Of a stretch of 64,000 bases of DNA, positions 1,305 to 43,249 are shown one piece after another (within the stretch, counting starts at the first letter, position 1; each line of letters starts with the position of its first letter). The notes below the pieces were generated by a model. It was not told where the DNA came from and did not search any database. It worked only from the letters and a program-made list of their open reading frames with translations. Source of the stretch: Liolophura sinensis (taxonomy: Eukaryota > Mollusca > Polyplacophora > Chitonida > Chitonidae); NCBI RefSeq assembly GCF_032854445.1, contig NC_088300.1:81693084-81757083 (forward strand), in the 5' to 3' direction. The position numbers and the translations under genes are program-made.

Positions 1305-1616
1305 TTACACCTGTTCAGTGGGTTTTGTGCCTCTCAGCGAATCGACATATATCCACTCCAGTGCCCTTGATGGCGCTAGTAGTTTGCAGTAGTGCATGCC
1401 GGCAAAGGCCCGGATGAAGAAGTTTGTTGGGGTAAGAAGAGAGTATGACGTCACGTTGAGGCCAGATGGTGTGTAGTTGAGAAGGAGTTGTTTGGTAAGC
1501 CACTGCACCCCCGTACGAGCCTCGATATCGGGCTCCGTTTGAAGTTTGCGGCCCCTGGCGATGAACCTCCTTTGTGCTATATCAGACGCCATGGACTTAG
1601 CTGTCTGGAAACACAT
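1305..1616 (-). CDS. Gene A exon 7: terminal exon
   Basis: The exon starts in phase 0 at TTTCCTTTACAG|ATGTGT and runs 103 codons to TAA (1305-1307). It encodes a basic helix (RRFIARGRK), GVQWLTKQLLLNYTPSGLNV, FFIRAFAGMHYCKLLAP and ends ALEWIYVDSLRGTKPTEQV. Two sequons are present. An alternative is a donor at CAG|GTGTAA (after 1311) leading to an exon outside the window, but the stop makes this the likely C-terminus. The first 12 exonic bases plus the acceptor are the seed of the 32-bp array upstream. Confidence 0.78.
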   Translation of the reverse strand: MCFQTAKSMASDIAQRRFIARGRKLQTEPDIEARTGVQWLTKQLLLNYTPSGLNVTSYSLLTPTNFFIRAFAGMHYCKLLAPSRALEWIYVDSLRGTKPTEQV

Positions 1617-2395
1617 CTGTAAAGGAAAGTCAAGTGGTAACAACACGTCTGTAAGGGAAAATCAAGTGACAGAAACACATCTGTAAAGGAAAGTCAAGAG
1701 ATATAAACGTCTGTGAAAGAAAGTCAAGTGATAGAAACACATCTGTAAGGGAAAGTCAAGTGATAGAAACACATCTGTAAAGGAAAGTCAAGAGATAGAA
1801 ACATATCTGTGAGGGGAAGTTAGATGATAAATACACGTCTTAAGGAAAAGTCAAGTGATAGAAACACATCTGTGAGGGAAAGTCAAGTGAGAAACACGTG
1901 TGTAAGGGAAAGTAAAGTGACAGAGAAAAGTCTGTACGGGAAAGTCAAGTGACAGAAATACATCTGTAAAGGAAAGTTAAGTGATAGAAACACATCTGTA
2001 AAGGAAAGTCAAGTGATAGAAACACATCTGTGAGGGAAAGTCAAGTGAGAAACACGTGTGTAAGGGAAAGTAAAGTGACAGAGAAAAGTCTGTACGGGAA
2101 AGTCTGTGAGGGGAAGTCAGATGATAAATACACGTCTTAAGGGAAAGTCAAGTGATAGAAACACATCTGTGAGGGAAAGTCAAGTGAGAAACACATGTGT
2201 AAGGGAAAGTAAAATGACAGAGAAAAGTCTGTACGGGAAAGTCAAGTGACAGAAATACATCTGTAAAGGAAAGTCAAGTGATAGAAACACATCTGTAAAG
2301 GAAAGTCAAGTGATAGAAACACATCTGTGAGGGAAAGTCAAGTGAGAAACACGTATGTAAGGGAAAGTCAAATGATATAAACGTCTGTGAGGGAA
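1617..2395 (-). repeat. 32-bp array in intron 6; each unit holds a 3' splice site copy
   Basis: On the minus strand each unit reads ACTTGACTTTCCTTTACAG followed by ATGTGTTTCTATC. The first part is the polypyrimidine tract and AG of exon 7; the second is nearly the first 12 bases of exon 7 (ATGTGTTTCCAG). There are roughly two dozen units with variants such as CCCTCACAG. The last unit is the functional acceptor at 1617. Confidence 0.9.
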
Positions 2396-2715
2396 ATAGT
2401 GTCTATAAGGAATGAAATGTTATCTGTAACCGATGAATCACCAAGGGGAAAGTCAAGAAATAAATTCACATCACTGTAAAATATTGTAAAGGTGTGGGGA
2501 CACTTGATAAAAATTTCAGAGGATAAACACAGACTAGAGACAAGAGTCCAAAAGGCATGATTTAAAGGGAAATGAACGAACAGGAGCTTTCCTAGGGATG
2601 AAAAGATTAATGTAAGAAAGGGTCGAGTACGGTCGAGTGATAGGTTAGGTATTTCTGTATAAGTCTGCTGTATTTTGTCACCCTGCACGATGAATAAGAA
2701 AACCCAAGCACTCAC
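2396..2715 (-). other. Unique 5' part of intron 6
   Basis: Non-repetitive intron sequence follows the exon 6 donor. The open frame that continues from exon 6 into it has no coding character. Confidence 0.5.
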
Positions 2716-2961
2716 CATATTGAGGTTTTCACATGTTAGGTTCTTAGTTTGGGCCGTAACGTTGGGTAGCATGGCCAGAACAGCGTCTTTACTCTTCATC
2801 TTAGCCTGCAGCTGAGTGGGCGTGAAGCTGGCGTTGACTTTATCCAAACCTCGGGGTGGGCTCACCTCAACGTACGTCTCTACCATGAGGACGCTACCGT
2901 TAAGGGCGGCCTTAGGCTTGACGGGGGGTAGTTCTACCTCGCTCACTACGTCACTGCTTAC
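2716..2961 (-). CDS. Gene A exon 6: Pro-rich linker and glycosylated segment
   Basis: These 82 codons are in phase 0 at both ends: acceptor CCTTTAATTAG|GTAAGC and donor AATATG|GTGAGT. It encodes VSEVELPPVKPKAALNGSVL, ETYVEVSPPRGLDKVNAS, a Lys-rich helix and LPNVTAQTKNLTCENLNM. Four N-glycosylation sequons lie within about 60 residues. A second AG, 24 bases inside and also in frame, is an alternative start. No known domain is recognised. Confidence 0.75.
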
Positions 2962-3159
2962 CTAATTAAAGGATACTGGTAGGTATTAACCACGTCCATG
3001 ATATCTGTTACTAACTTATCTCAGTCATTAGATGTTGTCTTTTTAGGTTGATCAACACTACCTGATAGAGGCTCAGTTATCTTTTAAACGATAAATTAGC
3101 ATATGGTTACAGTTTCGAGAAGACCAGAACATGGGCAGGGCATTTGCAAACATCACGCT

Positions 3160-3830
3160 AGGTCCAATCATAGACAAACGCGACACATGGACCGGTAATA
3201 GACAAAGAGCACACAGGGACCGATCATAGACAAACAGGACACAGGGACCTGTCATAGACAAACAGGACACAGGGACCTGTCATAGACAAACAGACTACAG
3301 AGACCGGTCACAGACAAACAGGACACAGCGACCGGCCACAAATAAACATGACACACAAACCGTCCACATACAAACAGACAACAGGAACCGGACATAGACA
3401 AACATGGCATAGAGACCGGTCATAGACAAACATGACACAGGGACCGGTCAAAGACAAACAAACTACAGAGGCCAGTCAAAGACAACCAGAACACAGGGAA
3501 CAATCACTGACAAACATGACACAGGGACAGGCCACAGACAAACATCACACAGGGACCGGTCATAGACAAACAGGATACAGGAACCGGTCATAGACAAACA
3601 TCACACAGGGACCGGCCACAGACAAACAGACTGCAGGGACGGGCAATAGATAAACAGGACACAGGCACCGGCCACAGATAAAGAGACTACAAAGACCTGT
3701 CATAGACAAACAGGACACAGGGTCCTGCCACAGATAAACAGGACACAGGGACCGGCCACAGACAAACAGACTATAGAGACCGGCCACAGATAAACAGAAC
3801 AAAGGGACAGGTCACAGACAAACTGTTCTA
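3160..3830. repeat. 28-bp array in intron 5
   Basis: Units of the type GACCGGTCATAGACAAACAG plus GACACAGG are repeated about 24 times with moderate divergence. No splice-like motif is seen in gene orientation. Confidence 0.85.
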
Positions 3831-4165
3831 TCAACAACATTAACTACACGGTGTATATGTTTAACCAACCACAGACAAACTGTTCTCTGAACACTATTCA
3901 CCACATGGTTTATACGTTTAACCAACCACAGACAAACAGCACACAGGAATCGACCACAGGCAAACTGTTCTCTGAACAACATTCACCACATGGTGTATAT
4001 GTTTAACCAACCACAGACAATCAGCATACAGGAATCGACCACAGACAAACTTTTCTCTGAACAACATTGACCACATGGTGTATATGTTTAACCAACCACA
4101 GACAAACAGCACACAGGAATCGACCACAGACAAACTGTTCTCTGAACAATAGTAACTGCATGGTA
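3830..4165. repeat. ~85-bp array in intron 5
   Basis: About four units contain ATGTTTAACCAACCACAGAC and CAAACTGTTCTCTGAACA. The array abuts the 28-bp array and shares the CACAGACAAAC motif with it. From 4166 to 4608 there is unique intron with a short GTCAGTCAGT run near 4470. Confidence 0.8.
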
Positions 4166-4608
4166 TACTTGTTTACCCCCAGTGAACAAATTACAAAACT
4201 AAGATTGACATTACCAGACACATGGAAAGAAACTGTAACATAAACATGATAATTATATGGGGAAGGAAGAAAATGATACAAATTTTTTTTACTTTTTGGC
4301 GGCATCTTTTATGTCTCAAAATTAGCCCTCGTTTATGATGGCATATTTTCCGTCAGAAGATTTTGGGCATGACGCCAAGTGTGAACTGCAGGCTACTTAA
4401 TTTCCTGTCTAACCACCAAAGCCTTAGTAATACTAGCTTAAGACCATTTTACCCCGGAGCCAGTGAGTCAGTCAGTCAGTAAATCACTGTCACTCTGTCA
4501 GTCAGCCAGTCACACATCAGATCTCACACAATTTATCGACTGTTTCTCACCTAGGTCCCTTACCCGTAATCTGCTTTGATCTTTGCCCTGAAGACCGACA
4601 AAGTTCAC

Positions 4609-4677
4609 CTGTGACTCCTCCACCCACGGGGAGTGACCGTCATCATTCTGATCCATCTCCTGGACTGCCCAGATTTT
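4609..4677 (-). CDS. Gene A exon 5: 69-bp micro-exon
   Basis: These 23 codons are in phase 0 at both ends. The acceptor is CTTCTTTTGACAG|AAAATC and the donor is GTCACAG|GTGAAC. It encodes KIWAVQEMDQNDDGHSPW followed by VEESQ. It was found because a 51-bp array with 3'-splice-like units ends exactly here and because flanking exons 4 and 6 are both phase 0. It is too short for ordinary ORF scans. The coding character is good but I have no homologue to confirm it. Confidence 0.68.
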
Positions 4678-6515
4678 CTGTCAAAAGAAGTGAAATAAGC
4701 AATGTCATATCACCAACCACCAAGATGTACAGTCTAAAACAACAAAATAAGTCGTGTCATATCTCCAACGTTCAAAATGTTCTGGGTAAAGCAACAAAAT
4801 AAGCAATGTCATATCCCCTACCATCATGATGTTCTGTGTAAAGCAGCAAAACAAGCAATGTCATATCCCCAACCATCATGATGTTCTGTGTAAAGCAACA
4901 AAATAAGCAATGTCATATCCCCAACCATCATGATGTTCTGTGTAAAGTAGTAAAACAAGCAATGTCATATTCCAAACCATCATGATGTTCTGTGTAAAGC
5001 AGTAAAATAAGCAATGTCATATCCCCAACCATCATGATGTTCTGTGTAAAGCAGTAAAATAAGCAATGTCATATCCCCAACCATCATGATGTTCTGTGTA
5101 TAGCAGCAAAAAAGCAATGTCATATCCCCAACCATCATGATGTTCTGTGTAAAGCAACAAAATAAGCAATGTCATATCCCCAACCATCATGATGTTCTGT
5201 CTAAAACAACAAAACAAGCAATGTCATATCCCCAACCATCATGATGTTCTGTGTAAAGCAACAAAATAAGCAATGTCATATCCCCAACCATCATGATGTT
5301 CTGTCTAAAACAACAAAACAAGCAATGTCATATCCCCAGCCATCATGATGTTCTGTGTAAAGTAGCAAAATAAGCAATGTCATATACCTTACCATCATGA
5401 TGTTCTGTGTAAAGCAGCAAAATAAGCAATGTCATATCCCCAACCATCATGATGTTCTGTCTAAAACAACAAAACAAGCAATGTCATAGCCCCAACCATC
5501 ATGATGTTCTGTGTAAAGTAGCAAAAAAGCAGTGTCATATTCCAAACCATCATGATGTTCTGTGTAAAGCAGCAAAACAAGCAATGTCATATTCCAAACC
5601 ATCATGATGTTCTGTGTAAAGCAGTAAATAAGCAGTGTCATATTCCAAACTATCAATATATTCTGTGCAAAGCAACAAAATAAGCAATGTCATATCCCCA
5701 ACCATCATGATGTTCTGTGTAAAGTAGCAAAAAAGCAATGTCATATCCCCAGCCATCATGATGTTTTGTGTAAAGTAGCAAAAAAGCAATGTCATATCCC
5801 CAACCATCATGATGTTCTGTGTAAAGTAGCAAAAAAGCAATGTCATATCCCCAGCCATCATGATGTTCTGTGTAAAGTAGCAAAAAAGCAATGTCATATC
5901 CCCAACCATCATGATGTTCTGTGTAAAGTAGCAAAACAGCAATGTCATATCCCCAACCATCATGATGTTCTGTGTAAAGCAGTAAATAAGCAGTGTCATA
6001 TTCCAAACTATCAATATATTCTGTGCAAAGCAACAAAATAAGCAATGTCATATCCCCAACCATCATGATGTTCTGTGTAAAGTAGCAAAAAAGCAATGTC
6101 ATATCCCCAGCCATCATGATGTTTTGTGTAAAGTAGCAAAAAAGCAATGTCATATCCCCAACCATCATGATGTTCTGTGTAAAGTAGCAAAAAAGCAATG
6201 TCATATCCCCAGCCATCATGATGTTCTGTGTAAAGTAGCAAAAAAGCAATGTCATATCCCCAACCATCATGATGTTCTGTGTAAAGTAGCAAAACAGCAA
6301 TGTCATATCCCCAACCATCATGATGTTCTGTGTAAAGCAGTAAATAAGCAGTGTCATATTCCAAACTATCAATATATTCTGTGCAAAACAACAAAATAAG
6401 CAATGTCATATCCCCAACCATCATGATGTTCTGTGTAAAGTAGCAAAAAAGCAATGTCATATCCCCAACCATCATGATGTTCTGTGTAAAGCAACAAAAC
6501 AAGCAATGCCATACC
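4678..6515 (-). repeat. ~51-bp array in intron 4; units resemble the exon 5 acceptor
   Basis: Read on the minus strand, units contain GATATGACATTGCTTATTT, then TGTTGCTTTACACAG, then AACATCATGATGG. The TTGCTTTACACAG piece is a plausible 3' splice site. The exon-proximal unit keeps GATATGACATTGCTTATTT and ends CTTCTTTTGACAG, the real acceptor of exon 5. There are about 36 units. A block of ~358 bp (seven units) is duplicated almost perfectly at about 5643-6000 and 6001-6358. Confidence 0.9.
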
Positions 6516-6559
6516 CCGAACCGTGATGGTGTTCATCACCCTAAGCTGTCCCTTGACCC

Positions 6560-8100
6560 TTGAGTTGCCATTTGACTCCTAAGCAACCCCTTCATTCCTA
6601 AGTTGTCCCTTCACAACTAAGTTGTTCCTTCACCCCTAAGTTGTTCCTTCACCCCTAAGTTGTTCCTTCTTCCCTAAGTTGTTCCTTCACCCCTAAGTTG
6701 TTCCTTCTTCCCTAAGTTGTTCCTTCACCCCTAAGTTGTTCCTTCACCCCTATGTTGTTCCTTCACCCCTATGTTGTTCCTTCACCCTAAGTTGTTCCTT
6801 CTTCCCTAAGTTGTTCCTTCACCCCTTAGTTGTTCCTTCACCCCTATGTTGTTTCTTCACCCCTGAGTTGTTCCTTCACCTTATGTTGTTCCTTCACCCC
6901 TATGTTGTATCTTGATCCCTATGCTGTTCATCCCTAAATTACCTTTTACCCTTATGTTGTGCCTTCACCCTTATGTTGTCCCTTTACCCTTATGTTGTCC
7001 CTTTACCCTTATGTTGTCCCTTCACCCCTGAGTTGTTCCTTCACTCCTATGTTGTCCCTTCACCCTTATGTTGTCCCTTCACCCCTGAGATGTTCCTTCA
7101 CTCGTATGTTGTCCCTTCACCCTTATGTTGTCCCTTCACCCCTATCTTGTCCCTTCACCCTTATGTTGTCCCTTCACCCCTAAGTTGTTCCTTCACCCCT
7201 ATGTTGTTCCTTCACCCCTATGTTGTTCCTTCACCCTTATGTTGTCCCTTCACCCCTAAGTTGTTCCTTCACCCCTAAGTTGTCCCTTCACCCCTATGTT
7301 GTCCCTTCACCCCTAAGTTGTTCCTTCACCCCTAAGTTGTTCCTTCACCCCTATGTTGTCCCTTCAACCCTAAGTTGTTCCTTCACCACTAAGTTGTTTC
7401 TTCACCCCTATGTTGTCCCTTCACCCCTAAGTTGTTTCTTCACCCCTATGTTGTATCTTGATCCCTATGCTGTTCATCAATAAATTACCTTTTACCCTTA
7501 TGTTGTCCCTTCACCCTTATGTTGTCCCTTTACCCTTATGTTGTCCCTTCACCCCTAAGTTGTTCCTTCACCCCTATGTTGTTCCTTCACCCCTAAGTTG
7601 TCCCTTCACCCCTATGTTGTCCCTTCACCCCTAAGTTGTTCCTTCACCCCTAAGTTGTTCCTTCACCCCTATGTTGTCCCTTCACCCCTAAGTTGTCCCT
7701 TCACCCCTATGTTGTCCCTTCACCCCTAAGTTGTTCCTTCACCCCTAAGTTGTCCCTTCACCCCTATGTTGTCCCTTCACCCATATGTTGTCCCTTCACC
7801 CCTATGTTGTCCCTTCACCCCTATGTTGTCTCTTCACCCCTATGTTGTCCCTTCACCCCTACGTTGCTCATCCCTAAGTTGCTTCTTCATAACTAAATTG
7901 TCCCTTCATCTCTAAGTTGTTCGTTCAGCCATACATGTATGTTGCCCCTCCATCTTTGAGTTGCCACTTTAACCGAAGTAGTCAATTTACCCCTTAGTTT
8001 GCCCTTTCACCCATAAGTCAGCCGTTTATCCCTAAGTTGGCCCTTGGCGTCCAAGTTACCAATTCCACCCTCAAGTTGTCCCCTAAGCCCAAAATCCCTC
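6560..8100 (-). repeat. 18-19-bp array in intron 4, reaching the exon 4 donor
   Basis: The minus-strand unit is about TAGGGGTGAAGGGACAACT, in over 70 copies, with monomer variants ending ACTTAG, ACATAG or ACTGAG. Degenerate units (GACAACTTGAGGGTGGAA) run to within ~20 bases of the exon 4 donor GGGG|GTAAGAGGGA, which the unit resembles loosely. Confidence 0.85.
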
Positions 8101-8104
8101 TTAC

Positions 8105-8387
8105 CCCCATACGGTCCTGATTATCGGAAAAGGCGGCCTGGAGTAAGGCCTTGGCGGCTGGGACTTCCGCTGCCGGCGCTTGCGCCTGGGTTATCATAAA
8201 GGCCACAACGTAACGACTGATGTTTCCCCAAGCTGCAGGATAGCTGATGTCCCCTTCTATGTCGGTGTACGTGAAGTTATCTGGGATCTTGCCAGAGAAG
8301 TAGTGTGTGTGGTTGACCCCCTCAAGCGTGACCACAGGCGTGTCATATAGCAGGTCAGGGGCAAACTCGGATTGTTGTACAACTCGT
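8105..8387 (-). CDS. Gene A exon 4: histidine loop and C-terminal helices
   Basis: The exon begins one base into a codon at TTTTTACAG|ACGAG and ends in phase 0 at ATGGGG|GTAAGA. It encodes RVVQQSEFAPDLL, then PVVTLEGVNHTHYFSGKIP. The His at residue 211 is the expected catalytic His. An Ala-rich helix follows, ending SDNQDRMG. It holds three N-glycosylation sequons (NHT, NFT, NIS). The downstream intron turns into a purine-rich tandem array within about 20 bases of the donor. Confidence 0.82.
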
Positions 8388-8399
8388 CTGTAAAAACAG

Positions 8400-8840
8400 T
8401 CTATGTACAATATAGAAGCATCCTCTCTTGTAAGATGAACCAGTTAGAAAAATAATAGTATTGTTGGTGAAGACGAACCACATTCATTGGCGCCATGCAG
8501 ATCACAGAAAAAAGTCTGGGAGCGCTGACTGGTTAAAATACACTGCTATTCTCGAATGGTTAGGTCACATATCCATCGGGACCCGTAAGTACGTTTTGTT
8601 TCTACGGTGGATTTCTAAAATAATTTCTGCCTGTGCTTACGGCCAGTCAAAGCTTTTTTGACACATCGGGAACTTGTAGCTCCGTGCTGAAAGCTTCATA
8701 TGTGCCCTAAAGACCGATAACTGTCTCGTAGTATAGCCATGCACGGCATCCTTCCAGATAGCGTGAGATTTTGCCAATTTTCCAAAAAAAAAAATTGGGT
8801 TTTAGGCGCGTCATATCCCGAATTTGTGACATAAGATGAT
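8400..8840 (-). other. Unique 3' part of intron 3
   Basis: About 440 bp between exon 4 and the 39-bp array show no repeat or coding signal. A poly-A run is present near 8785. Confidence 0.45.
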
Positions 8841-9765
8841 AGTGTACTAAGGTATCCGTAACACTGTACAAATGGTCATGATGTACTAAGGTATCCGTAA
8901 CACTGTACAAATGGTCATGATGTACTAAGGTATCCGTGACACTGTACAAATGGTCATGATGTACTAAGGTATCCGTGACACTGTACAAATGGTCATGATG
9001 TACTAAGGTATCCGCAACACTGTACAAATGGTCATGAAATACTAAGGTATCCGTGACACTGTACAAATGGTCATGATGTACTAAGGTATCCGTGACACTG
9101 TACAAATGGTCATGAAGTACTAAGGTATCCGTAACACTGTACAAATGGTCATGATGTACTAAGGTATCCGCAACACTGTACAAATGGTCATGATGTACTA
9201 AGGTATCCGTGACACTGTACAAATGGTCATGATGTACTAAGGTATCCGTAACACTGTACAAATGGTCATGATGTACTAAGGTATCCGTGACACTGTACAA
9301 ATGGTCATGATGTACTAAGGTATCCGTAACACTGTACAAATGGTCATGATGTACTAAGGTATCCGTGACACTGTACAAATGGTCATGATGTACTAAGGTA
9401 TCCGCAACACTGTACAAATGGTCATGAAGTACTAAGGTATCCGTGACACTGTACAAATGGTCATGATGTACTAAGGTATCCGTGACACTGTACAAATGGT
9501 CATGAAGTACTAAGGTATCCGTAACACTGTACAAATGGTCATGATGTACTAAGGTATCCGTGACACTGTACAAATGGTCATGATGTACTAAGGTATCCGT
9601 GACACTGTACAAATGGTCATGATGTACTAAGGTATCCGTGACACTGTACAAATGGTCATGATGTACTAAGGCATCCGTGACACTGTACAAATGGTCATGA
9701 TGTACTAAGGTATCCGTAACACTGTACAAATGGTCATGATGTACTAAGGTATCCGTGACACCGGT
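8841..9765 (-). repeat. 39-bp array in intron 3, highly homogeneous
   Basis: About 23 nearly identical units contain TACTAAGGTATCCGTGACAC and TGTACAAATGGTCATGATG (plus strand). Because 39 is divisible by three, a 353-codon open frame appears (period TDTLVHHDHLYSV); it is intronic and lacks coding support. The unit aligns with roughly 70% identity to the 38-bp unit next to it, so the two probably share an origin. Confidence 0.92.
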
Positions 9766-10549
9766 CATATGCTTCCTAAATAAAGGTCATATACATCCTG
9801 GAATAATTGTGCTGTCAAAATTCTCGTCAGATATTTATTGCCCCCGGAAATTTGGCCATTCTTACTGAAATAACTGTGCCTCCTTAAACATGGACAAACT
9901 TACTGAAATATCTGTGCTTCCGTAAATATGGACATACTTACTGAAATAACTGTGCCTCCGTAGATATGGTCATCCTTACTGAAATAACTTTGCCTCCGTA
10001 AATATGGACAGACTTACTGAAATAACTGTGCCTCCGTAGATATGGTCAAACTTACTGAAATAACTGTGCCTCCGTAAATATGGACAGACTTACCGAAATA
10101 ACTGTGCCTCCGTAGATATGGTCAAACTTACTGAAATAACTGTGCCTCCGTAAATATGGACATACTTACTGAAATTACTGCGCCGCCGTAACTATGGTCA
10201 TACTGAAACAGCTTTGCCATCGGAATATTGGTCACACTTACCGACCGAAATTTACCGCTGCAATTATGGTCATATACTTACTGAAATAACTGTGCTTTCG
10301 TAAATACGGTCATGCTTACTGAAATAACTGTGCCTTCGTAAATATGGACATACTTACTGAAATAACTGTGCCATCGTAAATATGGCCATGCTTACTGCAA
10401 GAATTCTGCAGACGTATTTATGGTCATACCCTTACTGAAATAAATGTGCCTATGTAATTTCTCTCATACTTACGGAAATAACTGTGTCTACGTAAATATG
10501 GTCATACTTGCTGCAATAGCTGTGTCGCCGTAATTATGGCCATTCTTAC
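9766..10549 (-). repeat. 38-bp array in intron 3; each unit copies the exon 3 end and 5' splice site
   Basis: On the minus strand the unit is ATTTACGGAGGCACAGTTAT, then TTCAGTAAGTATGACCAT. The exon 3 end reads ATTTACGGCGGCACAGTTAT then TTCA|GTAAGAATGG, so the first unit is the exon end itself. About 18 units follow; many hold GTAAGTAT, which matches the 5' splice consensus better than the true GTAAGAAT. Confidence 0.92.
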
Positions 10550-10724
10550 TGAAATAACTGTGCCGCCGTAAATATGGTCATCACTCCGTCGAGATCACCT
10601 GACATGAAGAGGGTAGGAACAGTGAAGTCCGTCATTTTCTGGTAACGAGGGGGTGCGTGTGAAAAGAGGATGAGGGCTTTAAACATGTCGGGATTCAAGT
10701 CTACGTAATCCGACAAAGTAGCAC
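10550..10724 (-). CDS. Gene A exon 3: core strands and catalytic-acid loop
   Basis: The acceptor is TTTTGTCTTCAG|GTGC and the donor is TTATTTCA|GTAAGA (phase 2). The encoded segment continues the elbow (GGATLSDYV), then ALILFSHAPPRY, then VPTLFMSGDLDGV, the usual strand and loop carrying the catalytic Asp. It ends in TAAQLFQ, where homologues I recall have a similar AE-YY helix, so the exon end looks ancestral. The last ~30 coding bases and the splice donor equal one unit of the 38-bp array that fills the next intron. Confidence 0.8.
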
Positions 10725-10904
10725 CTGAAGACAAAAAACGACGAGAAGAGAAATGAGGAAAATGAACATATTCAGAGCCAATGACATCTAATACGGCAGA
10801 ACAGAGGCCAAACGATAATGTTAGATAGTCAGGAAAGCACCTGAAAGCAAAACCAAACGCTCACCGACACCCAAAATGGCATAATGGCATTTAACATGTT
10901 TTGG

Positions 10905-11745
10905 TGTCATGGGTGCTCCTATAGTGAGATGGTCGAGGACATGGGTTTAGTGAAGCACACCAGTATAAGTTTGTATCGTGTGTTCCTTATTTAAGTTGGT
11001 TGAGAACACGGGTTTGGTGTCATATGTACTCCTTATGTAAGAAGAATACCGATTTTGTGGTCCATATGTGGTGCCATATGTGGTCCTTACGTAAGCTGGC
11101 CGAAGACACTGGGTTTATGTCATGTGTGTTTCTTATATAAGTTGGTGGACGGAACGGGTTTGGTGTCATGAGTTGTCCTTGATTGAGCAGGCCTTGTGGG
11201 ATTTGGTGTCATGAGTTGTCCTTGAGTATGCTGGCGTTTTGGGACTTTGTGTCATGAGTTGTCCTTGAGTAAGACGACGTTTTGGGGCTTGGTGTCATGA
11301 GTTGTCCATGAGTAAGGGGGGGCGAGGGGCTCCGTGGCTCAGTCGGTTAGCGCGCTGGCGCAGCGTAATGACCCAGGAGCCTCTCACCAATGCGGTCACT
11401 GTGAGTTCAAGTCCAGCTCATGCTGGCTTCCTCTCCGGCAGTACGTGGGTAGGTCTTTCACCAATCTGCGGATGCTCGTGGGTTTCCCCCAGGCTGCGCC
11501 CGGTTTCCTCCCACCATAATGCTGGCCGCTGTCGTATAAGTGAAATATTCTTGAGTACGGCGTAAAGCGCCAATTAAATAGATAAATAAATAAATAAATC
11601 CATGAGTAAGATGGCCTTTTTGGGGTTTGGTATCATGAGTAGTCCATAAGTAAGATGGCCTTTTTGGGGTTTGGTGTCATGAGTTGTCTTGGGTAAGCTG
11701 GCCTTTTGGGGTTTGGTGTCGTGAGTTGTCCGTTGATGAAGCATA
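10905..11745. repeat. ~43-bp degenerate array in intron 2, split by a SINE
   Basis: Units contain GGTGTCATGAGTTGTCCTTG and AGTAAGCTGGCCTTTTGGGG. The RUDI-like SINE at 11317-11599 lies inside it. Confidence 0.8.
11317..11599 (+). mobile_element. RUDI-like V-SINE, full length, tRNA-derived head
   Basis: The head GGCTCCGTGGCTCAGTCGG contains an A-box (TGGCTCAGTCGG), and GAGTTCAAGTCC is a B-box. The central and 3' parts (GGGTTTCCCCCAGGCTGCGC, CATAATGCTGGCCGC, GAAATATTCTTGAGTACGGC) match the common molluscan V-SINE. It ends in an AAATAAAT tail. The target duplication is TCCATGAGTAAG at 11305-11316 and 11599-11610. The name RUDI is from memory of the family. Confidence 0.85.
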
Positions 11746-11794
11746 AGTATGTCATATATGTGTGTCTACCTTCGTCTAAAGGATTTGTCATGTT

Positions 11795-12925
11795 TTGCTG
11801 AGAGATCATGAACAGATCGGATGGGATGGTCTTGTACTTAACATTTATCACGTCTTCCTCAGAGATCATGATCAAATCGCATGGGATGGTCTTGTACTTA
11901 ACATTTGTCATGTCTTGCTGAGGGATCATGGACAAATCGCATGGGAATGTCTTGTACTTAACATTTATCACGTCTTCCTCAGAGATCATGGTCAAATCGC
12001 ATGGGATGGTCTTGTACTTAACATTTGTCATGTCTTGCTGAGGGATCATGATCAAATCGCATGGGATGGTCTTGTACTTATCATTTGTCATTTCTTAATC
12101 AGGGATCATGGCCAAATCGCATAGGAATGTCTTGTACTTAACATTTATCACGTCTTCCTCAGAGATCATGATCAAATCACATGGAATGGTCTTGTACTTA
12201 ACATTTGTCATGTCTTGCTGAGGGATCATGATCAAATCGCATGGGATTGTCATGTACTTAACATTTGTGATGTTTTGATAAGGGATCATGATCAAATAGC
12301 AAGGGAATGTCTTGTACTTAACATTTATCATATCTTGCTGAGGGATTATGATCAGATCGCATTGGAATGTCTTGTACTTAACATTTGTCATATCTTGCTG
12401 AGGGATTATGATCAAATCGAATGGGAACGTCTTGTACTTAACATTTGTCATGTCTTGCTGAGGGATTATGGTCAAATCGCATTGGAATGTCTTGTACTTA
12501 ACATTTATCACGTCTTTCTCCGAGATCATGATCAAATCGCATGGGAATGTCTTGTACTTAACATTTATCACGTCTTACTTAGAGATCATGATCAAATCGC
12601 ATTGGAATGTCTTGTACTTAACATTTGTCATATCTTGCTGAGGGATTATGATCAAATCGAATGGGAACGTCTTGTACTTAACATTTGTCATGTCTTGCTG
12701 AGGGATTATGGTCAAATCGCATTGGAATGTCTTGTACTTAACATTTATCACGTCTTTCTCCGAGATCATGATCAAATCGCATGGGAAAGTCTTGTACTTA
12801 ACATTTATCATGCCTTGCTGAGGGGTCAAGGTCAAATCGCATGGGAATGTCATGTACTTAACATTTATCACGTCTTCCTCAGACATCATGGTTAAATCGC
12901 ATTGGAACGTCTTGTACTTAACACC
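11795..12925. repeat. 60-bp array in intron 2
   Basis: Nineteen or so exact-length units contain GGAATGTCTTGTACTTAACA and TTGTCATGTCTTGCTGAGGG. A four-unit (240-bp) block at about 12391 recurs at about 12631. Open frames on both strands are due to the 60-bp period. Confidence 0.9.
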
Positions 12926-13085
12926 CACACAACAAGCCAATTTAACATTCTATTTTTTCTAATGAAACCGTGTCATGATGAACTAACATTGTGAGAACAT
13001 TTTCATTACTTCATAATTTTCATTATCACCCAACTTGAGATAATCATACAGTCAAGGGTATAATAGCAGTTTGTTGCTCACTGAC

Positions 13086-13271
13086 CTCCGTATCCATGGC
13101 CGGCCACCATGACCGCTGCATGCTGAGCCAACCCTAACTCGTACATCCTCCGCAGCATCTTCTCAAACCCAGAGCCGATTTCAAGCAGGTTAGGCACTTG
13201 ATTCTCAAACCCTCCAATAAATCCCATCCATAACCGGAAGCGACTGGCAGCCTCATTCTGAAGGGTAACAC
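13086..13271 (-). CDS. Gene A exon 2: LW motif and nucleophile-elbow region
   Basis: The exon starts in phase 1 at acceptor GATTTAG|GTG and ends in phase 1 at GGAG|GTCAGT. It encodes GVTLQNEAASRFRLWMGF, an amphipathic helix, and then VMVAGHGYGG. The spacing from the first strand to LW and then to the elbow matches what I recall of bacterial and eukaryotic alpha/beta hydrolases of the GHSxGG type. Position 124 is Gly instead of Ser. An alternative acceptor 14 bases further in (CTTCAG|AAT) is in phase 0 and does not fit exon 1; the upstream AG gives a continuous frame. Confidence 0.8.
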
Positions 13272-13279
13272 CTAAATCA

Positions 13280-13614
13280 AGACCCAGAGTGCTAGAAACA
13301 CATGACTGGATTGGACATAGGCAAGGCCGATATCACTGGTGATTCATATGTAAGTCAAATTGTAGGATAACGGTTGGAATAAAAATAGTTTATTCTACAT
13401 GTATCGTCAACAAGCTCAACAAAAACAACCTAATCAAATGTTGCACGCGTCGTGTTTGTTTATAACAGGTGATTATGTCGTCTGCATTTGTTAGAAAAAC
13501 CATGGTACAACGTTTTAGAGTTAGGAATTGCGTGTGCCTGGACGACAGGTGGTAGGTAAAAAAACTACTAGGTGTTGGTGAACAGATTAATATAGGATAC
13601 TGATTACATACCGG
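13280..13614 (-). other. Unique 3' part of intron 1
   Basis: Non-repetitive intron sequence; no gene or element is seen. Confidence 0.45.
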
Positions 13615-14965
13615 TATTAGTTACGTGCGTGAAAGCTCGTACCAGTTACATGCTCGTACCAGTGAAAACTTGTGCAAATAACGTGTGTGAAAACTTGTAC
13701 AAATTACGTGTGTGAAAACTTGTACCACTTAGATGTCTAAAGTGAGACCAATTTCCTGTGTGAAATCTGGTACCAATTACGTGTGTGAAAACTTGTACCA
13801 GTTACCTGTGTGAAAACTAGCACCAATTACGTGTGTGAAAACGTGTACCACTTAGGTGTGTGAAAACTGATACCAGTTACCTGTGTGAAAACTTGTACCA
13901 CTTACGTGTGGGAAAACTGATACCAGTTACCTGTGTGAAAACTTGTACCAATTATATGTGTGAAAATTCGTACTAATTACGTTTGAGACAATTGGTATCA
14001 TTTACGAGTAAAAACTGGTGCCAATTAAGTGAGTGAAAACTGCTACCAATTACATGTGTGAAAACTCGTACCAGTTATGTGTGTTAAAACTGGTACCAAT
14101 TACGTGAGTGAAACTTCTACTATTACGTGAATGAAAACCCGTACCAGTTACATGTATGGAACTTGTACTAATTACGTGTGGGAAAAGTTGGACTAATTAC
14201 GTGTGTGAAAACCTGTACAATTATGTGTGTGTAAACTTGTACCAGTTACGTGTTGGAAAACTTGTACCGCTTAGGTGTGTGAAAACTAATAGCAGTAGTC
14301 TGCGTGAAAACGTGAAGCAATTACGTGCATAAAAACTGCTACCAATTACGTGAGGGAAAACTGGTACCAAATACGTGTTAAAAACTTGTACTATTGCGTG
14401 TGTGAAAACTCGTACCAGTTAAGCCTACGTTTTGAAAACGCATTTATTTATTTATTTGATTGGTGTTTTACGCCCTACTCAAAAATATATCGCTTATACG
14501 ACGGCGGCCAGCATTATGGTGTGAGGAAAGCGGGCAAAACTCGGTGGAAACCCACGACCATCCACAGGTTGATGCAGACCTTTCAACGTACGGCCGGACT
14601 TGAACTCACAGCGACCGCATTGGTTGAAACCTTGTACCAATTACATATATGAAAACTGTTACCAATTATATGTGTAAAAACTCGTACCAGTCAATTGTGT
14701 GGAAATTGAACTATTACGTGTGTGCAAACTAGTGCGAATTACATATGTCAAAACTTCTACAAATTATATGTGTGTAAACTCGTACTAATTACGTGTTAGA
14801 AAATTGGTATCAATTACGTGTAAAAACTGGTGCCAATTACGTAAATAAAAACTCGTATCAATTACATATGTGAAAACTGGTACCAATAACGTGTGTGAAA
14901 AGTTGTACCAATTACGTTTATAAAAACTCATCCCAATTACGTGTGTAAAGAGTTGTACAAGTTAC
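13615..14965. repeat. 25-27-bp array in intron 1, split by a SINE
   Basis: Degenerate units contain ACTTGTACCAATTACGTGTG and TGAAA. It is diverged, with many single-base changes. The SINE copy at 14440-14636 interrupts it. Confidence 0.85.
14440..14636 (-). mobile_element. RUDI-like SINE copy, minus strand, inside array
   Basis: It reads on the plus strand ATTTATTTATTTGATTGGTG, TTTTACGCCCTACTCAA, GACGGCGGCCAGCATTATGG and ACTTGAACTCACAGCGACCG, the reverse complement of the copy at 11317. Array units flank both sides. A possible short target duplication is TTGAAA(A)C. Confidence 0.8.
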
Positions 14966-15009
14966 GGTTGTTACCTAATTAAATGTAAGAAAATGTCAGT
15001 CGCAAGTCT

Positions 15010-15975
15010 AAAGTATATACAGACCTACATGTGTGTACAGGGATACACAGGCCTACAGTTGTGTAAAATAATGTACAGACTTACATGTGTGTACAATGTT
15101 GTACAGACCTAGCTGTGTGTACAGGGATACACAGGCCTAGCTGTGTGTACAATGATGGACAGACCTACCTGTATGTACAAGGATGCACAAACCTACATGT
15201 GTGTACAGGGATACACAGGTCTACATGTGTGTACAATGTTGTACAAACCTACAAAGGTGTACAGGGATACACAGGCCTAAATGTGTGTACAGGGGTACAC
15301 CGGCCTACATGTGTGTACAATGATGTACAGACCTACATATGTATACAATGTTGGACAGACCTACATCTGTGTACAGCGATACACAGGCCTATATGTGAGT
15401 ACAATAATGTATAGAGCTACATGTGTGTACAGTGATGTACAGACTTACACGTGTGTATAGAGATACACAGGCCTACTTGTGTGTAAAATGATGTACAGAC
15501 CTACATGTGTGTAGAATGATGTAAAGACCTGCATGTGTGTATGTGGATACACAGGCCTACTTGTGTATACAATGATGTACAGGCGTACATGTGTATACAA
15601 TGATGTACAGACTTACCTGTGTGTACAATGTTGTACAGACCTACCTGTGTGTACAATGATGTACAGACCTACTTATGTGTACAATGATGTACAGACCTAC
15701 ATGTGTGTACAATGATGGACAGACCTACATGGAGTACAATGATGTACAGACCTACATGTGTGTAAAATGATGTACAGACCTACATGTGTGTACAATGATG
15801 TGCAGACCTACATGTGTGTACAATGTTGTACAGACCTGCATGTGTGTACAGGGATACACAGGCCTACATGTGTGTACAATGATGAACAGACCTACATGTG
15901 TACCTGTGCGTACAATGTTTCACAGACCTACCTGTGTTTACAATGATGTACAGACCTACACGTGTGTACAATGAT
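15010..15975. repeat. 28-30-bp array in intron 1, distal part
   Basis: Units are of the type TGTGTACAATGATGTACAGA plus CCTACATG. They are related to the exon-proximal part at 17576-18336 by the CTGTACA..TGTACACA core, so this is the older end of one array that was split by a PLE. Confidence 0.88.
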
Positions 15976-17575
15976 GTAAATATAAGCGTCAAGTCCGACA
16001 TTCCTATACTATTCGTAGTCCGTAAAGGGCGTTCCAATTCGATAATCGCAAGATCCATTTCCACAACAACGTTTAACACTAACTCCCGAAGACAAAGGTA
16101 TGTAAGAAATTATACAAATAAAAAATAAAGCCGGTAACACACAAGAGAAGCGGTCATCAGTTTTCAATGTTGCCGCGCAGACAATGAATATTCCAGGCAT
16201 GAATTCCATATCAAAGTTCAAATTCGTAGTCCGTGAATGAGTTTCATGTCAAATAACAGCTAAACAAGTATCTCAGTCGCGCTTTAATTGCAACTGTTCA
16301 TAAAGGCATCATGCTGATGTAATTAGCATGGCTACCTTTACGGCCCCTAGCCCCAGGTTAAGCGGTATTACATACAGTTTGAAAATGACGAGCGCTACAG
16401 ACCCTAACCGATCAGATTATGATTCAAAAGTAACGGGCGATTACGTCTTTCCCGTTAATATGTAAAGATCTCATGCTACAAGAGGCGCCATCTATGATGT
16501 TACACATTACATACAAGATAGACGGTTACACTGGGCAACCAGCGCCATCTATGTTGTAAAATACCATGTACGTGATAGATATGTACATAGGGATAACAGC
16601 GCCGTCTATGTGGTTGATCACAATGCAGATCGCCAGAGATTCTGAACGCTCTGTCCATACCTGCCAACGAGAGTGTTCTACTCATTGTAAAATTTGAGAA
16701 ACTTAAAATGAAGGCGTTTGATGGAGTATCCTTGACAAACTAGTTTTTGAACTAGCAACTTGTGACGCAGATTAAAGTCATCACAGTTATCGCAAGATCT
16801 GACAAATGCTACAAGGCGAGATATGTATACGCCATATGCAGGACTCTTTGGTATATTGCTATCTAAATAAGGATAATTTACAATATCAAAATTGAAATTA
16901 TCGCTTTTGTCGTAAAGGCGGCGTGAAAGGAGACTTGTCCGTCTTTGTACAGATATAGATCCAAATAAGATGTACCATCAGGACTATCTGTTGTCTCCTT
17001 TAAATCCAATGAAGGCGGATAGATTTCCTTCACCACTTCAGCAATGTGGGGATTATTTAACGCCAGTAGATCATCAATATACCGTTTGGTAAATGAATAG
17101 GATCGAGCATTAAAGATATTACTTTTAAGTCATTTCTGCATATAGTCGTATTCATATGAAAACAGGTATAGGTCTGCCAAAAGAGGCGCACAATTGGTAC
17201 CCATTGGAATACCTATGCACCGTTGGTAAATGGTATCTCCGAATTTCACATAAATGTTATTAATGAGAAATTCAAGTAATTCAATAAATAATGTAACATC
17301 CCAAGAGTATTAACCTTTATAAAGAGTAGAACTAAAGAAAGCCTTATTGCTTCTGACGTTAATGTAACGGTGACCTGTTTTAGTAAATACCGAGACAATT
17401 AACGACGATATTCTTTCAATAAGATCTTTGTGAGGAATCGTAGTATAGAGAGTAGAGAAATCCCATGTGGATACGTCTTTGTACGGTATATGCATATGAG
17501 CATCGAGTTCTTCTGTAAGACGTTTGGAGTTGTTAAGAATCCACATGCAGTTGACACCTGAATTTTTTGTTATGG
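15976..17575 (-). mobile_element. Penelope-like retroelement (PLE) fragment, 5'-truncated
   Basis: The minus strand encodes reverse-transcriptase pieces in order: DVSTWDFSTLYTTIPHKDLI, then GIPMGTNCAPLLADLYLFSY, then SFTKRYIDDLLALNNPHI (the YxDD-type catalytic motif), then GVYISRLVAFVRSCDNCDDF. Frames are broken by stops. About 500 bp of non-coding 3' end follows, ending GACGCTTATATT. Both ends join 28-bp array units, so it inserted into the minisatellite. The family assignment is from motif knowledge; no GIY-YIG endonuclease was seen. Confidence 0.82.
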
Positions 17576-18336
17576 CACAAGACTTACCTGTGCGTACAAT
17601 GTTGTACAGACCTACATGTGTGTACAATGATGTACAGACCTACTTATGTGTACAATGATGTAAAGGCCTGCGTGTGTGTACAATGTTATACAGATCTACA
17701 TGTGTGTACAATGTTGTACAGACCTACATGCGTGTACAATGATGTATACACCTACATGGAGTACAATAATATACAGCCCTACATGTATGTATATCCCTGT
17801 ACACAGGGATATGCAGACGTAGCTGTGTGTACAGGGATATGCAGGCCTAGATTTGTATTCTGGGATATATTGGTCTGACTGTGTGTACAGGGATATACCG
17901 GCGTGCCTATGTCTAGGCTTACATGGATAGACAGGCGTGATAATGTGTACAGGTATATAAAAGTGTGACTGTGTGCACAGGGATATACAGACGTGGCTGT
18001 GTGTACAGGGATGTACAGACATAGGTGTGTACAGGGATATATAGATGTAGCTGTTTGTAGCTGTATGTACAAGGATGTACAGACCTAGCTGTATATACAG
18101 GGATATATGGACGAAGCTGCGTGCACAGGGTTATACAGACGAAGCTGCGTACACAGGGTTATACAGACCTAACTATGTGTACAGGGATTTACAGACCTAG
18201 CTGTTTGTACAGGGAAATACAGACGTAGCTGCGAGCAGAGGGATATACAGACGTGGCCTAGTGCACAGGGATATACAGACGTAGCTGTGTGTACAGGGAT
18301 ATACAGACGTAGCTGTGTGTACAGGGATATACATAC
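17576..18336 (-). repeat. 28-bp array in intron 1; each unit copies the exon 1 end and 5' splice site
   Basis: The exon 1 end reads AGTACACACAGCTAG|GTATGT. The intron continues ATATCCCT, then TGTACACACAGCTACGTCTG, TATATCCCT and so on. Each unit therefore repeats the last 14-15 exonic bases plus a degraded donor (GTCTGT). Only the first unit keeps GTATGT. It starts at the donor and runs to the PLE at 17575. Confidence 0.9.
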
Positions 18337-18529
18337 CTAGCTGTGTGTACTGTGTGGCGTTGACATAAGACTCCGGTATAAGTATCAATGCCATGTCCTG
18401 TCCTGTTTTTCCAGGTGGTTCAAACACGGTAATTTCCGTGTCCCCCGCCTGACCGAACACAGACCGAAAGCTGGAGAGAGCTAAGAGCTTCATAACGAAA
18501 AAAGCTGCAGTCATGAACATCAGCGTCAT
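18337..18529 (-). CDS. Gene A exon 1: start codon, signal peptide, first beta strand
   Basis: This exon holds 64 codons plus one base. The ATG opens a hydrophobic stretch (residues about 1-27, rich in F, M, L and A) typical of a signal peptide. An acidic linker follows, then ALILIPESYV, which fits the first core strand and oxyanion region of an alpha/beta hydrolase. The donor reads CTAG|GTATGT (phase 1). Gene B exon 1 at 32515 has the same architecture and phase (ALLVVPEENV). The last 15 exonic bases are repeated many times in the intron that follows (see the array at 17576-18336). No TATA box or other promoter element was convincing upstream. Confidence 0.82.
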
Positions 18530-41210: not shown

Positions 41211-43154
41211 TCAAGTATCAGAATCAGAGGCCTTCGCGTCAAGCTCGTCAATAGAAGATAGCTGTGGTGCGCGAGAAACAGTTAACGAGCCCTTTCTCCT
41301 CTTTTCTCCATCCCATATAGGAGCAATCTGACTGGGTGTGAGATTGGCGGGACAACTGTACTTCCGGGCGCCGGCCTGCCTGGGATGGCTGCCATCGGAA
41401 AGAGCCCTGTCAAAGTCCATGGCGGTGTCCGGGTGTAAAGCTCTTTCCGGGTGTAGAGCGCTGTCCGGGTGTAGAGCACTCTCCGGGAGTAAAGCACTGT
41501 CCGGGTGTAAAGCAGTATCCGGGTGTAGAACGCTGTTCAGTTGAATAGAGCTATCAGATTGCAGCGAGTTGTCCGAATGTACAATGTCGAGTGGGTGTTC
41601 GTCCAAGTTGTTTAACTGTTCTGTGTGAGTCAGATCTGGATGAGAGTACCAGCTAAAGGCCTCACTAGCCTTCAACGACTCGTCACCATCCGCCAAGACT
41701 TCAGATACAAACCCAATCTCTTCACCTGATTGGCTTCGAGAAAGATGGCCTACATTGTCAGAAGCACTGGTCGTTATGATCGTCGGAGGCACGAGCAGCC
41801 TGGCACGATCCTGAATATTTACGGGCCAAGTTTTCCTTGGCGTTAGCACGTTACCATACGGCTCAGTCGGCTGTTTGGCGTCGGTTAACAGGCAGTCCTG
41901 TGAAGTGCGGATTGGGTGTTTGAATATAGAGGATCTGGAGAGGCGGGTGAGCAGCGACCCCTGGTGGGACAGACGTCTTCGGGGTGACACCGGAAGGGCA
42001 CTGGTTTCCTTTTCTGGCATCACGAGTCTCTGCTCCTCGGCGGTCAGATGCGGCAGACTGTACGTAGACCCCAGGAAAGCTGGTCGCTTGGAGGCCCGAG
42101 ACGCCTCCGTGTACGGAAGATTGGAGATCTTTGTCTCGTCCCAGTGTAAGTCCCGTGTCAGAGGCGGGATTTGACCGTAACACTGGTCAACTATGGTCAT
42201 GGAAACCGATATGTGCCGGTCAATCAACCAGTTGACTTCAAAGTCGTCGTCGTCTTCCCCAAACGGGTTGATTAACTGCTCGGCCACTTTGAGCCAGCCC
42301 ATGTAGAAGAAGAACTGTAGAAGGGTAAATACAGGAACATAAAAATCATAGTCGTAGTTTTCGTATCCCTGTGTCGGGTCCAGAAACTGCCGACCGATTA
42401 CACAGGCGCCGAAAAACATATAGACAGCCAGAGTGACAACCTGGGTGTAGACGAGAGGCACTGTGACCCAATCGTACATGAAACACTGGCTACACTTGTC
42501 TCGGAAGTCCGCCAACTGCTCAGTGATCATGCGCAGTCCCAGGTCTGTCTCAATCCGGCCCTCTTTGCGGGCTGTCGCCATTAAGCTGTTAGCCCATATG
42601 ACCGGAAGCCAGAACTTGTTGTAGTCGCAGCTAACAGACTCGAACATATCCACATCTTCCCGGGTGGCGATGCCGGCCTGAATTACGTGATCTAGGGTCG
42701 GGAAGCGCTTCATCGCTGCCACACTGATTGATCGCAGGATGAGGACTGTGGAAAAGACGAGATAGCGCGCCACGGTCCGTCTGAGCATGCGCCCTCGCTC
42801 GTCCTGACCTGTGACGTAACAGTGGACCATCAGTGCTGTCCGATCTGGCCAGGGCAGATTCTGGAACTGTCTCCACCAGCGCGAGACGACTAAGGTGACG
42901 TAAAATCCCAAGACAAAGGAGATGGGGATGAGACTAGTGTAAGTGTTACAGTGAAGGGCCATTCTTTCAAACACACGCCGCTGGGGTTCGGACAATAGGA
43001 GTCGGTAACAGAGGCTAAGCGCTGTGTAAATACCAGAGAATATGATTATCTCCTTGTACATGAGTTTGTAGACACTTCCTCTCCACTTGAGTAGTAATTT
43101 ACCGAATCCAGCGAGCGAGGCCGTGGCCACGCGGCACTGGTAGATGATGGTCAT
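41211..43154 (-). CDS. Bestrophin-family calcium-activated chloride channel (intronless)
   Basis: This 647-residue protein is collinear with human BEST1 over about 365 residues. Bestrophins are pentameric anion channels of the plasma or intracellular membranes. Visible hallmarks are the start MTIIYQ..VA, the neck LIPISFVLGFYVTLVVSRWW with I76, F80 and F84, NLPWPDR (99-105), LRRT, VLILRS (137-142), the FFFYMGWLKVAEQLINPFG stretch and the acidic Ca clasp EDDDD at 300-304. The conserved KRPAFLGSTY follows at about 356-365. The tail (366-647) is Ser/Pro-rich, low in conservation and contains six LHPDSA-type hexapeptides (543-578). The whole CDS is one exon, whereas vertebrate BEST genes have many, so a retrocopy or loss of introns is possible. 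The reading frame is intact and all key residues are kept, so it is probably functional. Confidence 0.96.
   Translation of the reverse strand: MTIIYQCRVATASLAGFGKLLLKWRGSVYKLMYKEIIIFSGIYTALSLCYRLLLSEPQRRVFERMALHCNTYTSLIPISFVLGFYVTLVVSRWWRQFQNLPWPDRTALMVHCYVTGQDERGRMLRRTVARYLVFSTVLILRSISVAAMKRFPTLDHVIQAGIATREDVDMFESVSCDYNKFWLPVIWANSLMATARKEGRIETDLGLRMITEQLADFRDKCSQCFMYDWVTVPLVYTQVVTLAVYMFFGACVIGRQFLDPTQGYENYDYDFYVPVFTLLQFFFYMGWLKVAEQLINPFGEDDDDFEVNWLIDRHISVSMTIVDQCYGQIPPLTRDLHWDETKISNLPYTEASRASKRPAFLGSTYSLPHLTAEEQRLVMPEKETSALPVSPRRRLSHQGSLLTRLSRSSIFKHPIRTSQDCLLTDAKQPTEPYGNVLTPRKTWPVNIQDRARLLVPPTIITTSASDNVGHLSRSQSGEEIGFVSEVLADGDESLKASEAFSWYSHPDLTHTEQLNNLDEHPLDIVHSDNSLQSDSSIQLNSVLHPDTALHPDSALLPESALHPDSALHPERALHPDTAMDFDRALSDGSHPRQAGARKYSCPANLTPSQIAPIWDGEKRRKGSLTVSRAPQLSSIDELDAKASDSDT
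41424..41531 (-). repeat. In-frame 18-bp minisatellite in bestrophin C-tail
   Basis: Six 18-bp units encode LHPDTA, LHPDSA, LLPESA, LHPDSA, LHPERA and LHPDTA (residues 543-578). The unit length is a multiple of three, so copy-number change would not shift the frame. Confidence 0.85.
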
Positions 43155-43249
43155 TCTCTACCACACTTGTCACAGTTGTCACAGTTGTCACTTCTGTCAC
43201 ACGTGTTGTTCTGTTAGCGATGCTGACACCCTGGGTCGAGGTGTTACTG

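Follow-up and report, generated by a model that had tools for sequence, protein, structure and literature searches.

Tandem arrays built from splice junctions in a chiton gene resemble the mirages of amphioxus

Minisatellite-like tandem duplications that span exon/intron boundaries are known from amphioxus, where they were termed mirages and occur in the globin genes BflGb6/9, in Adh3 and in troponin C, with a similar case in PGBD5 (PMC3087553, PMC3902484). According to the PGBD5 paper, the mirages of Adh and troponin C duplicate splice sites and give rise to no aberrant mRNAs (PMC3902484), and amphioxus mirages have been put forward as raw material from which new introns could arise (PMC3087553). 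At Adh3 of amphioxus, the alleles are reported to be unstable in length. A minisatellite in the human IFI6 (6-16) gene supplies several donors, and two of its downstream units serve as donors in transcripts (PMC4526556). Intronic minisatellites have also been reported in abalone and earthworm, where junction units are not among the features described in the available sections (PMC6905558, PMC12783039), and minisatellites lie near alternative exons in C. elegans (PMC4039745). Here, we analyse a seven-exon gene of the chiton Liolophura sinensis, hereafter gene A, in which the repeat unit of several intronic arrays is the adjacent splice junction itself. Gene A is located on the minus strand of a 64,000-nucleotide stretch of DNA (C6:81693084-81757083; the window), taken from an assembly of 609,464,459 bases in 632 contigs that was published under the name Liolophura japonica, later corrected to L. 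sinensis (PMC11068029; PMC12441733). An earlier note on this stretch knew of no described class of minisatellites seeded at splice junctions; the amphioxus mirages are such a class and match the chiton arrays. We consider it probable that these arrays are mirages as well, that is, minisatellites whose founding tandem duplication spanned an exon/intron boundary by chance, with the exon-proximal splice site remaining in use.

Junction-spanning arrays in gene A

Four of the 12 junctions of gene A lie inside tandem arrays that have the junction as their unit, namely the donors of exons 1 and 3 and the acceptors of exons 5 and 7. The arrays were called with Tandem Repeats Finder (TRF), and the exon nucleotides within each of them were counted:

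17798-18350, minus strand: array at the exon 1 donor (18337); unit 28 bp, 14 exon nt inside (TRF)
9839-10577 or 10581 (depending on the TRF row), minus strand: array at the exon 3 donor (10550); unit 38 bp, 28-32 exon nt inside
4672-6534, minus strand: array at the exon 5 acceptor (4677); unit 52 bp, 6 exon nt inside (TRF), a weak case
1608-2396, minus strand: array at the exon 7 acceptor (1616); unit 32 bp, 9 exon nt inside (TRF)

The exon 3 array is the strongest of the four cases; its unit of 38 bp is mostly coding sequence, given the 28-32 exon nucleotides inside. Tandem arrays in general occupy 69% of the 15,716 intron bases of gene A and 49% of the window.

A test independent of TRF singled out the same junctions. 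For each of the 12, a window of ±20 nt was scored against the remaining adjacent intron and compared with 100 shuffles. The exon 1 donor, exon 3 donor, exon 5 acceptor and exon 7 acceptor scored 53, 60, 27 and 58, and their best shuffles reached 24, 22, 24 and 22. None of the other eight junctions (scores 14-24) surpassed the best of its own 100 shuffles. Among these, the exon 3 acceptor (24) lay above the 95th percentile of its shuffles (21) and below the best of them (27), and degenerate repeats suspected by eye at the exon 4 donor were not confirmed (18, inside the shuffle range). The exon half of the exon 5 acceptor window scored just 10 by itself, to be read against shuffles made for full windows. 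The exon 1 donor window reached 40 in antisense, indicating that its unit is partly self-complementary. Thus, four arrays of gene A are built on adjacent junctions, as the earlier note had claimed. Its remark that all arrays are in sense orientation, with the functional site in the exon-proximal copy, is true by geometry but has no independent weight, because any tandem array spanning a junction necessarily has both properties.

The exons of gene A, all read in the open joined frame, are as follows (a slash marks the junction):

18337-18529, minus strand: exon 1, ATG at 18529, donor CTAG/GTATGT
13086-13271, minus strand: exon 2
10550-10724, minus strand: exon 3, donor TTTCA/GTAAGA; end and phase as in the paralog (see below)
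8105-8387, minus strand: exon 4
4564-4677, minus strand: exon 5, acceptor TTTTGACAG/AAAATC
2716-2961, minus strand: exon 6
1305-1616, minus strand: exon 7, acceptor TTTACAG/ATGTGTTTC; the stop codon ends at 1305

Joined, they yield 502 codons without an internal stop (502 amino acids), and the introns are of the GT/AG type with phases 1, 1, 2, 0, 0 and 0. The top Pfam match of the product, Abhydrolase_5 (E 5e-06, 26.8 bits), narrowly misses the family cut-off of 27, and the predicted protein appears weakly alpha/beta-hydrolase-like. The end of exon 2 (about 13086-13104, minus strand) encodes GHGYG, and the corresponding segment of a paralog at C6:81776500-81785000 encodes GHGHG. Alpha/beta hydrolases usually carry the motif GxSxG; judging from the replacements, both proteins may be non-catalytic.

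Frequency of junction arrays in the genome

Beyond gene A, exons were located by homology in seven protein families of the same genome. The first sample comprised the myosin head, adaptin, DNA polymerase B and Sec1 families (126 of 144 rows kept) together with the chaperonin family CCT/Hsp60 (47 of 50 rows taken up, 42 used), and the second sample comprised the tRNA synthetase and MCM families (44 of 50 rows). For myosin 65 of 213 candidates were scored, and for the remaining families every candidate was. Junctions below the calling cut-offs were dropped, which left 293 of 336 for analysis in the first sample and 73 of 88 in the second. In the six non-chaperonin families, both the rows and the sampling rule had been settled ahead of any retrieval of their sequence; the chaperonin counts are not blind, because the CCT sequences had been scanned for repeats before their junctions were counted.

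In the first sample, 3 of 158 acceptors and 10 of 135 donors (13/293 junctions) lay inside arrays, with 9-115 exon nt within them. Eight of the 13 belong to myosin, three to CCT and two to adaptin genes; the DNA polymerase B and Sec1 families had none. None of the 73 junctions of the second sample was inside an array, two arrays there stopping 6-7 nt from an acceptor; the rates of the two samples do not differ significantly (P 0.08). Pooling both gave 13/366 junctions (3.6%, 95% interval 1.9-6.0%), or 10/288 without chaperonins, and donors (10/167) were affected more often than acceptors (3/199; P 0.025). As examples, the CCT3 exon tail VPGGGATEMALAQ and the CCT5 exon tail IRNIVRDNRVVYGGGAA each lie in an array together with their donor. 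A CCT3 acceptor at local position 549 also terminates an array (7-549); its exon match exceeded the length set by the sampling rule, and it is therefore counted outside the 13 but within the decoy counts below. Across gene A and the samples, unit lengths range from 28 to 140 bp. Arrays of this type are thus genuine features of the genome that extend beyond gene A, with further instances in CCT3, CCT5, myosin and adaptin genes.

To ask for an excess over chance, two nulls were used, and they disagree. Judged by coverage, junctions lie in arrays less often (13/366) than points 250 nt into the intron (39/366; P 0.00025), a deficit that selection against arrays over exons would produce. In the founder null, the founding duplication is given the observed unit length and a random position. 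Here, the 13 arrays of the first sample compare with 4.7 expected (P 0.0012; donors 10 against 2.7, acceptors 3 against 2.0), the absence of arrays from the 73 junctions of the second with 0.32, and the 13 of both samples with 5.05 (P 0.002). Omitting the chaperonins left 10/288 against 3.94 expected (P 0.007), omitting myosin 5 against 2.25 (P 0.08), and omitting both myosin and CCT 2/162 against 1.15 (P 0.32). The apparent excess is carried by these two families, and since only 65 of the 213 myosin candidates were scored, ascertainment may have biased it. Gene A, a gene chosen as striking, had 4 spanning arrays against 0.34 expected when its 15 arrays, hand-merged from TRF rows, were placed in this way (P 0.0004), whereas 4 of 12 junctions is below plain coverage because arrays fill 69% of its intron bases. 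The near edges of arrays fell between -20 nt (exon) and +40 nt (intron) in 16 of 72 cases, compared with about 8 under a uniform distribution across the 520 nt scanned. A two- to three-fold excess at junctions is therefore suggested, not established. The statement of the earlier note that the association goes beyond simple proximity holds for gene A by founder placement and fails against coverage, and the comparison with chance that it called for came out in the same divided way on our sample.

In the reading that we favour, this chiton genome would produce many intronic minisatellites, and some founding duplications, arising by slippage or recombination, would happen to cover a donor or an acceptor. 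The exon would survive if the spliceosome continued with the exon-adjacent copy, as might be expected from exon definition, which pairs the sites closest to the exon, and the later copies would grow in number and decay within the intron like an ordinary minisatellite. Fewer arrays are predicted at acceptors than at donors, because an extra acceptor would lie upstream of the real one and would perhaps be met first. The donor and acceptor counts fit this neutral account; they fit hotspot models too.

Such models, in which junctions, and donors above all, are true hotspots of array birth, for example through co-transcriptional structures or the short repeats at AG/GT motifs, would make seeding at a junction causal rather than accidental; they strike us as rather unlikely but are the most serious alternative. 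The founder-null excess in the first sample, in both samples and in gene A, its persistence without the CCT genes, the clustering of array edges at junctions and the surplus of donors all speak for a hotspot. Nevertheless, array coverage at junctions is below that of intron points, eight of the 13 arrays come from the partly scored myosin exons, the excess dwindles without myosin and further without myosin and CCT, and the second sample contributed nothing. The donor bias, moreover, is equally explained by stronger selection against acceptors placed upstream of the real one.

Extra copies, working sites and direction of copying

With the arrays at hand, we studied how their extra splice-site copies (decoys) decay, using a set of 18 arrays that includes the four of gene A, the 13 sampled ones and the CCT3 acceptor at 549; an array of the paralog, described below, is outside these counts. 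GT or AG is present in the consensus of all 18. Decoy GT/AG showed 19 changes in 343 cells, with 27.5 expected from any dinucleotide of the units (P 0.16) and 21.9 from the same dinucleotide (P 0.34), which indicates no significant constraint. A seemingly strong conservation of decoy GT/AG had appeared when decoys were compared with the functional copy. It was rejected, since the functional site cannot vary and ungapped windows favour their centre; unlike that comparison, the one with each array's own consensus gave no significant effect. Within the exon copies, the three codon positions varied equally (92/1219, 96/1230 and 86/1244 changes, i.e., 7.5%, 7.8% and 6.9%; P 0.68), and there is thus no sign that the copies are translated. 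Taken together, the extra copies look neutral.

Splice-site strength was scored with tables of approximate donor and acceptor frequencies. Among decoys matched by short windows, 171/188 retain GT or AG and 80/188 score at least as high as the functional site or within 0.5 bit of it; both are rough counts, as the match rule contains the splice dinucleotide and admits off-register matches (17 for about 6 copies in array L054). The decoy donors of exon 1 are mostly weakened, with a median score of -3.8 against 4.6 for the functional donor. At exon 3, the functional donor scores 0.3, and its decoys have a median of 1.8 and a maximum of 4.8, 15 of 17 being within 0.5 bit or better. Read-through of this donor meets TAA one nucleotide past it; hence, the working site cannot be told by its strength alone. 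In 9 of the 12 donor arrays (two of gene A and ten sampled), a stop lies less than one unit length beyond the functional donor. The 120 nt read at exon 1 of gene A are free of stops, but a unit of 28 bp changes the frame, and in donor array L020 a stop follows at 32 nt, the unit being 31. The CCT3 array (L007, G000:C8:53403600-53413000, reverse complement 6984-7838) has a 66-bp unit after the donor at 7028 that is in frame and open for the 120 nt read. Every extra unit kept there would add 22 residues.

Several of these observations weigh against neutral mirages. The use of the proximal site is predicted from protein homology and reading frame, and in CCT3, where the unit is open and in frame, use of a decoy would not be self-defeating. 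Neutrality alone may not explain the number of spanning arrays, 13 against about 5 by founder placement. Furthermore, outside gene A decoy GT/AG changed 3 times against 9.2 expected from any dinucleotide (P 0.09) and 7.2 from the same dinucleotide (P 0.23), a shortfall compatible with weak constraint.

The copies could also form a reservoir of decoy sites that titrates splicing factors or regulates the splicing of its own gene, the sponge envisaged in the earlier note. The high retention of GT/AG and the share of decoys near or above the functional score, in the rough count above, would suit such a role. However, the splice dinucleotide is not kept significantly more often than other dinucleotides of these units, the decoys of exon 1 are degraded and the paralog has no array at its exon 3 donor, so that we regard a reservoir as very improbable.

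The direction of copying was studied at exon 3. With the junction read by eye, exon 3 of the paralog runs for as many codons past the shared GDLDGV motif as that of gene A and stops in the same phase, and the exon ends (GDLDGVARITRSASSFR in gene A against GDLDGVMTIFTAAQLFQ in the paralog) are homologous coding sequence. Unlike that of gene A, the exon 3 donor of the paralog is without an array; its exon 3 acceptor carries an array of its own with a 52-bp unit that extends about 10 nt beyond the acceptor. Because end, codon and phase match, the exon end repeated in the gene A array is ancestral coding sequence. At exon 3 the exon thus gave rise to the array, which was built from the junction, in agreement with the seeding at junctions that the earlier note had proposed. 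As the arrays sit at different exon 3 junctions, they were born independently in the two genes. A further proposal, that arrays offer a route to shifted exon ends, found no counterpart in the sole comparison made, that of exon 3 with the paralog. Intron gain by tandem duplication was considered for the exon 3 junction, the one examined, and was rejected given the identical exon end and phase of the paralog.

The opposite order, in which an exon end was captured from an existing intronic array by exon extension, would likewise leave exon and array with shared sequence, and sharing alone gives no direction. We give it hardly any credence. Homology argues that it is already contradicted for gene A exon 3, whose last codon and phase agree with those of the paralog, and for CCT3 and CCT5, whose exon ends within arrays are aligned across by PDB chains of the same subunits (6nr8_C for CCT3, 4b2t_E for CCT5); direction was examined at these three. 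Least credible of all is the view that the resemblance is accidental, the junctions are misplaced or the assembly is faulty: the gene A junctions were placed from sequence alone, the overlap at the exon 5 acceptor is small and the published HiFi coverage is 14X only, but four junctions beat their shuffles with consistent exon phases, the pattern returned in other genes with coding homology, and the mean HiFi read of 8,347 bp (PMC11068029) is longer than any of the four arrays in gene A, which measure up to 1.9 kb.

Neighbouring features and comparison with known systems

Further features were noted in the window. At 15018-17791, about 1.6 kb of non-array DNA with short minus-strand open frames lies between two arrays that share a 28-bp unit. 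The frames look like parts of a Penelope-type reverse transcriptase, which would fit a single array interrupted by an element; a Pfam search with three of them gave no match below E 0.05. An element resembling a short interspersed nuclear element lies at 11325-11600, and part of its tail recurs in inverted orientation at 14441-14620, both identified by eye; a search of the window with ARAGORN gave no tRNA gene. A single open frame of 648 codons at 41211-43157 (minus strand) encodes a complete Bestrophin domain (E 2.5e-138); inside this frame, an 18-bp unit is tandemly repeated at 41422-41536.

The minisatellite load seen here (49% of the window; 39/366 sampled intron points) is absent as a class from the repeat table of the chiton genome paper, which gives 27.89% repeats, with simple repeats, microsatellites and RNA at 0.08%; the main text contains no word beginning with "satellite" and no "intron" (PMC11068029).

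We tentatively suggest, while holding it as somewhat doubtful, that mirages are no oddity of cephalochordates: in a mollusc, a few percent of the coding junctions, those of housekeeping genes among them, would carry tandem copies of their own splice sites, donors being favoured, and junctions would perhaps be a preferred birthplace of minisatellites. If so, nature would have set up thousands of contests between near-identical splice sites in one genome, each won by the site closest to the exon, sometimes over stronger copies, as at exon 3 of gene A. In-frame cases such as CCT3 with its 66-bp unit would provide a route to new protein insertions. Should the sampled frequency of such junctions hold, routine RNA data from this animal could show how the spliceosome chooses among near-identical sites and whether closeness to the exon outweighs strength, and a second phylum with a measurable frequency would make the idea of raw material for new introns testable across related chitons. 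Gene prediction would be troubled by these arrays, because exon tails repeat in introns.

Compared with known systems, the chiton arrays differ from the human IFI6 minisatellite in that use of a distal donor would mostly (12 donor cases) lead to a stop or a frame shift, as judged from the reading frames. They share with intron gain through duplication of AG/GT proto-splice sites a tandem duplication that copies splice motifs (PMC3087553, PMC4974935), but in that process a new intron is made, whereas the exon 3 array of gene A sits in an intron whose position at the end of exon 3 is shared by the paralog. The likeness to amphioxus mirages is the closest: both are minisatellite-like tandem duplications of the intron/exon boundary at 5' as well as 3' sites (PMC3087553, PMC3902484), seen in the chiton as TRF-called tandem repeats with boundary-spanning units at two donors and two acceptors of gene A. 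In both, many, though not all, units keep AG/GT (171/188 decoys in the chiton), and the unit lengths overlap, with 10-72 bp in Adh3 and 150-160 bp in the globins of amphioxus against 28-140 bp here. Normal splicing was established from transcripts in amphioxus (by reverse-transcription PCR for the globins) and is predicted from the reading frame in the chiton. A non-exhaustive literature search, with preprints and subscription papers outside its reach, returned no report of junction mirages in a mollusc. The chiton arrays are of a kind already known, to which they add a mollusc, a junction frequency measured by sampling and tests of decay.

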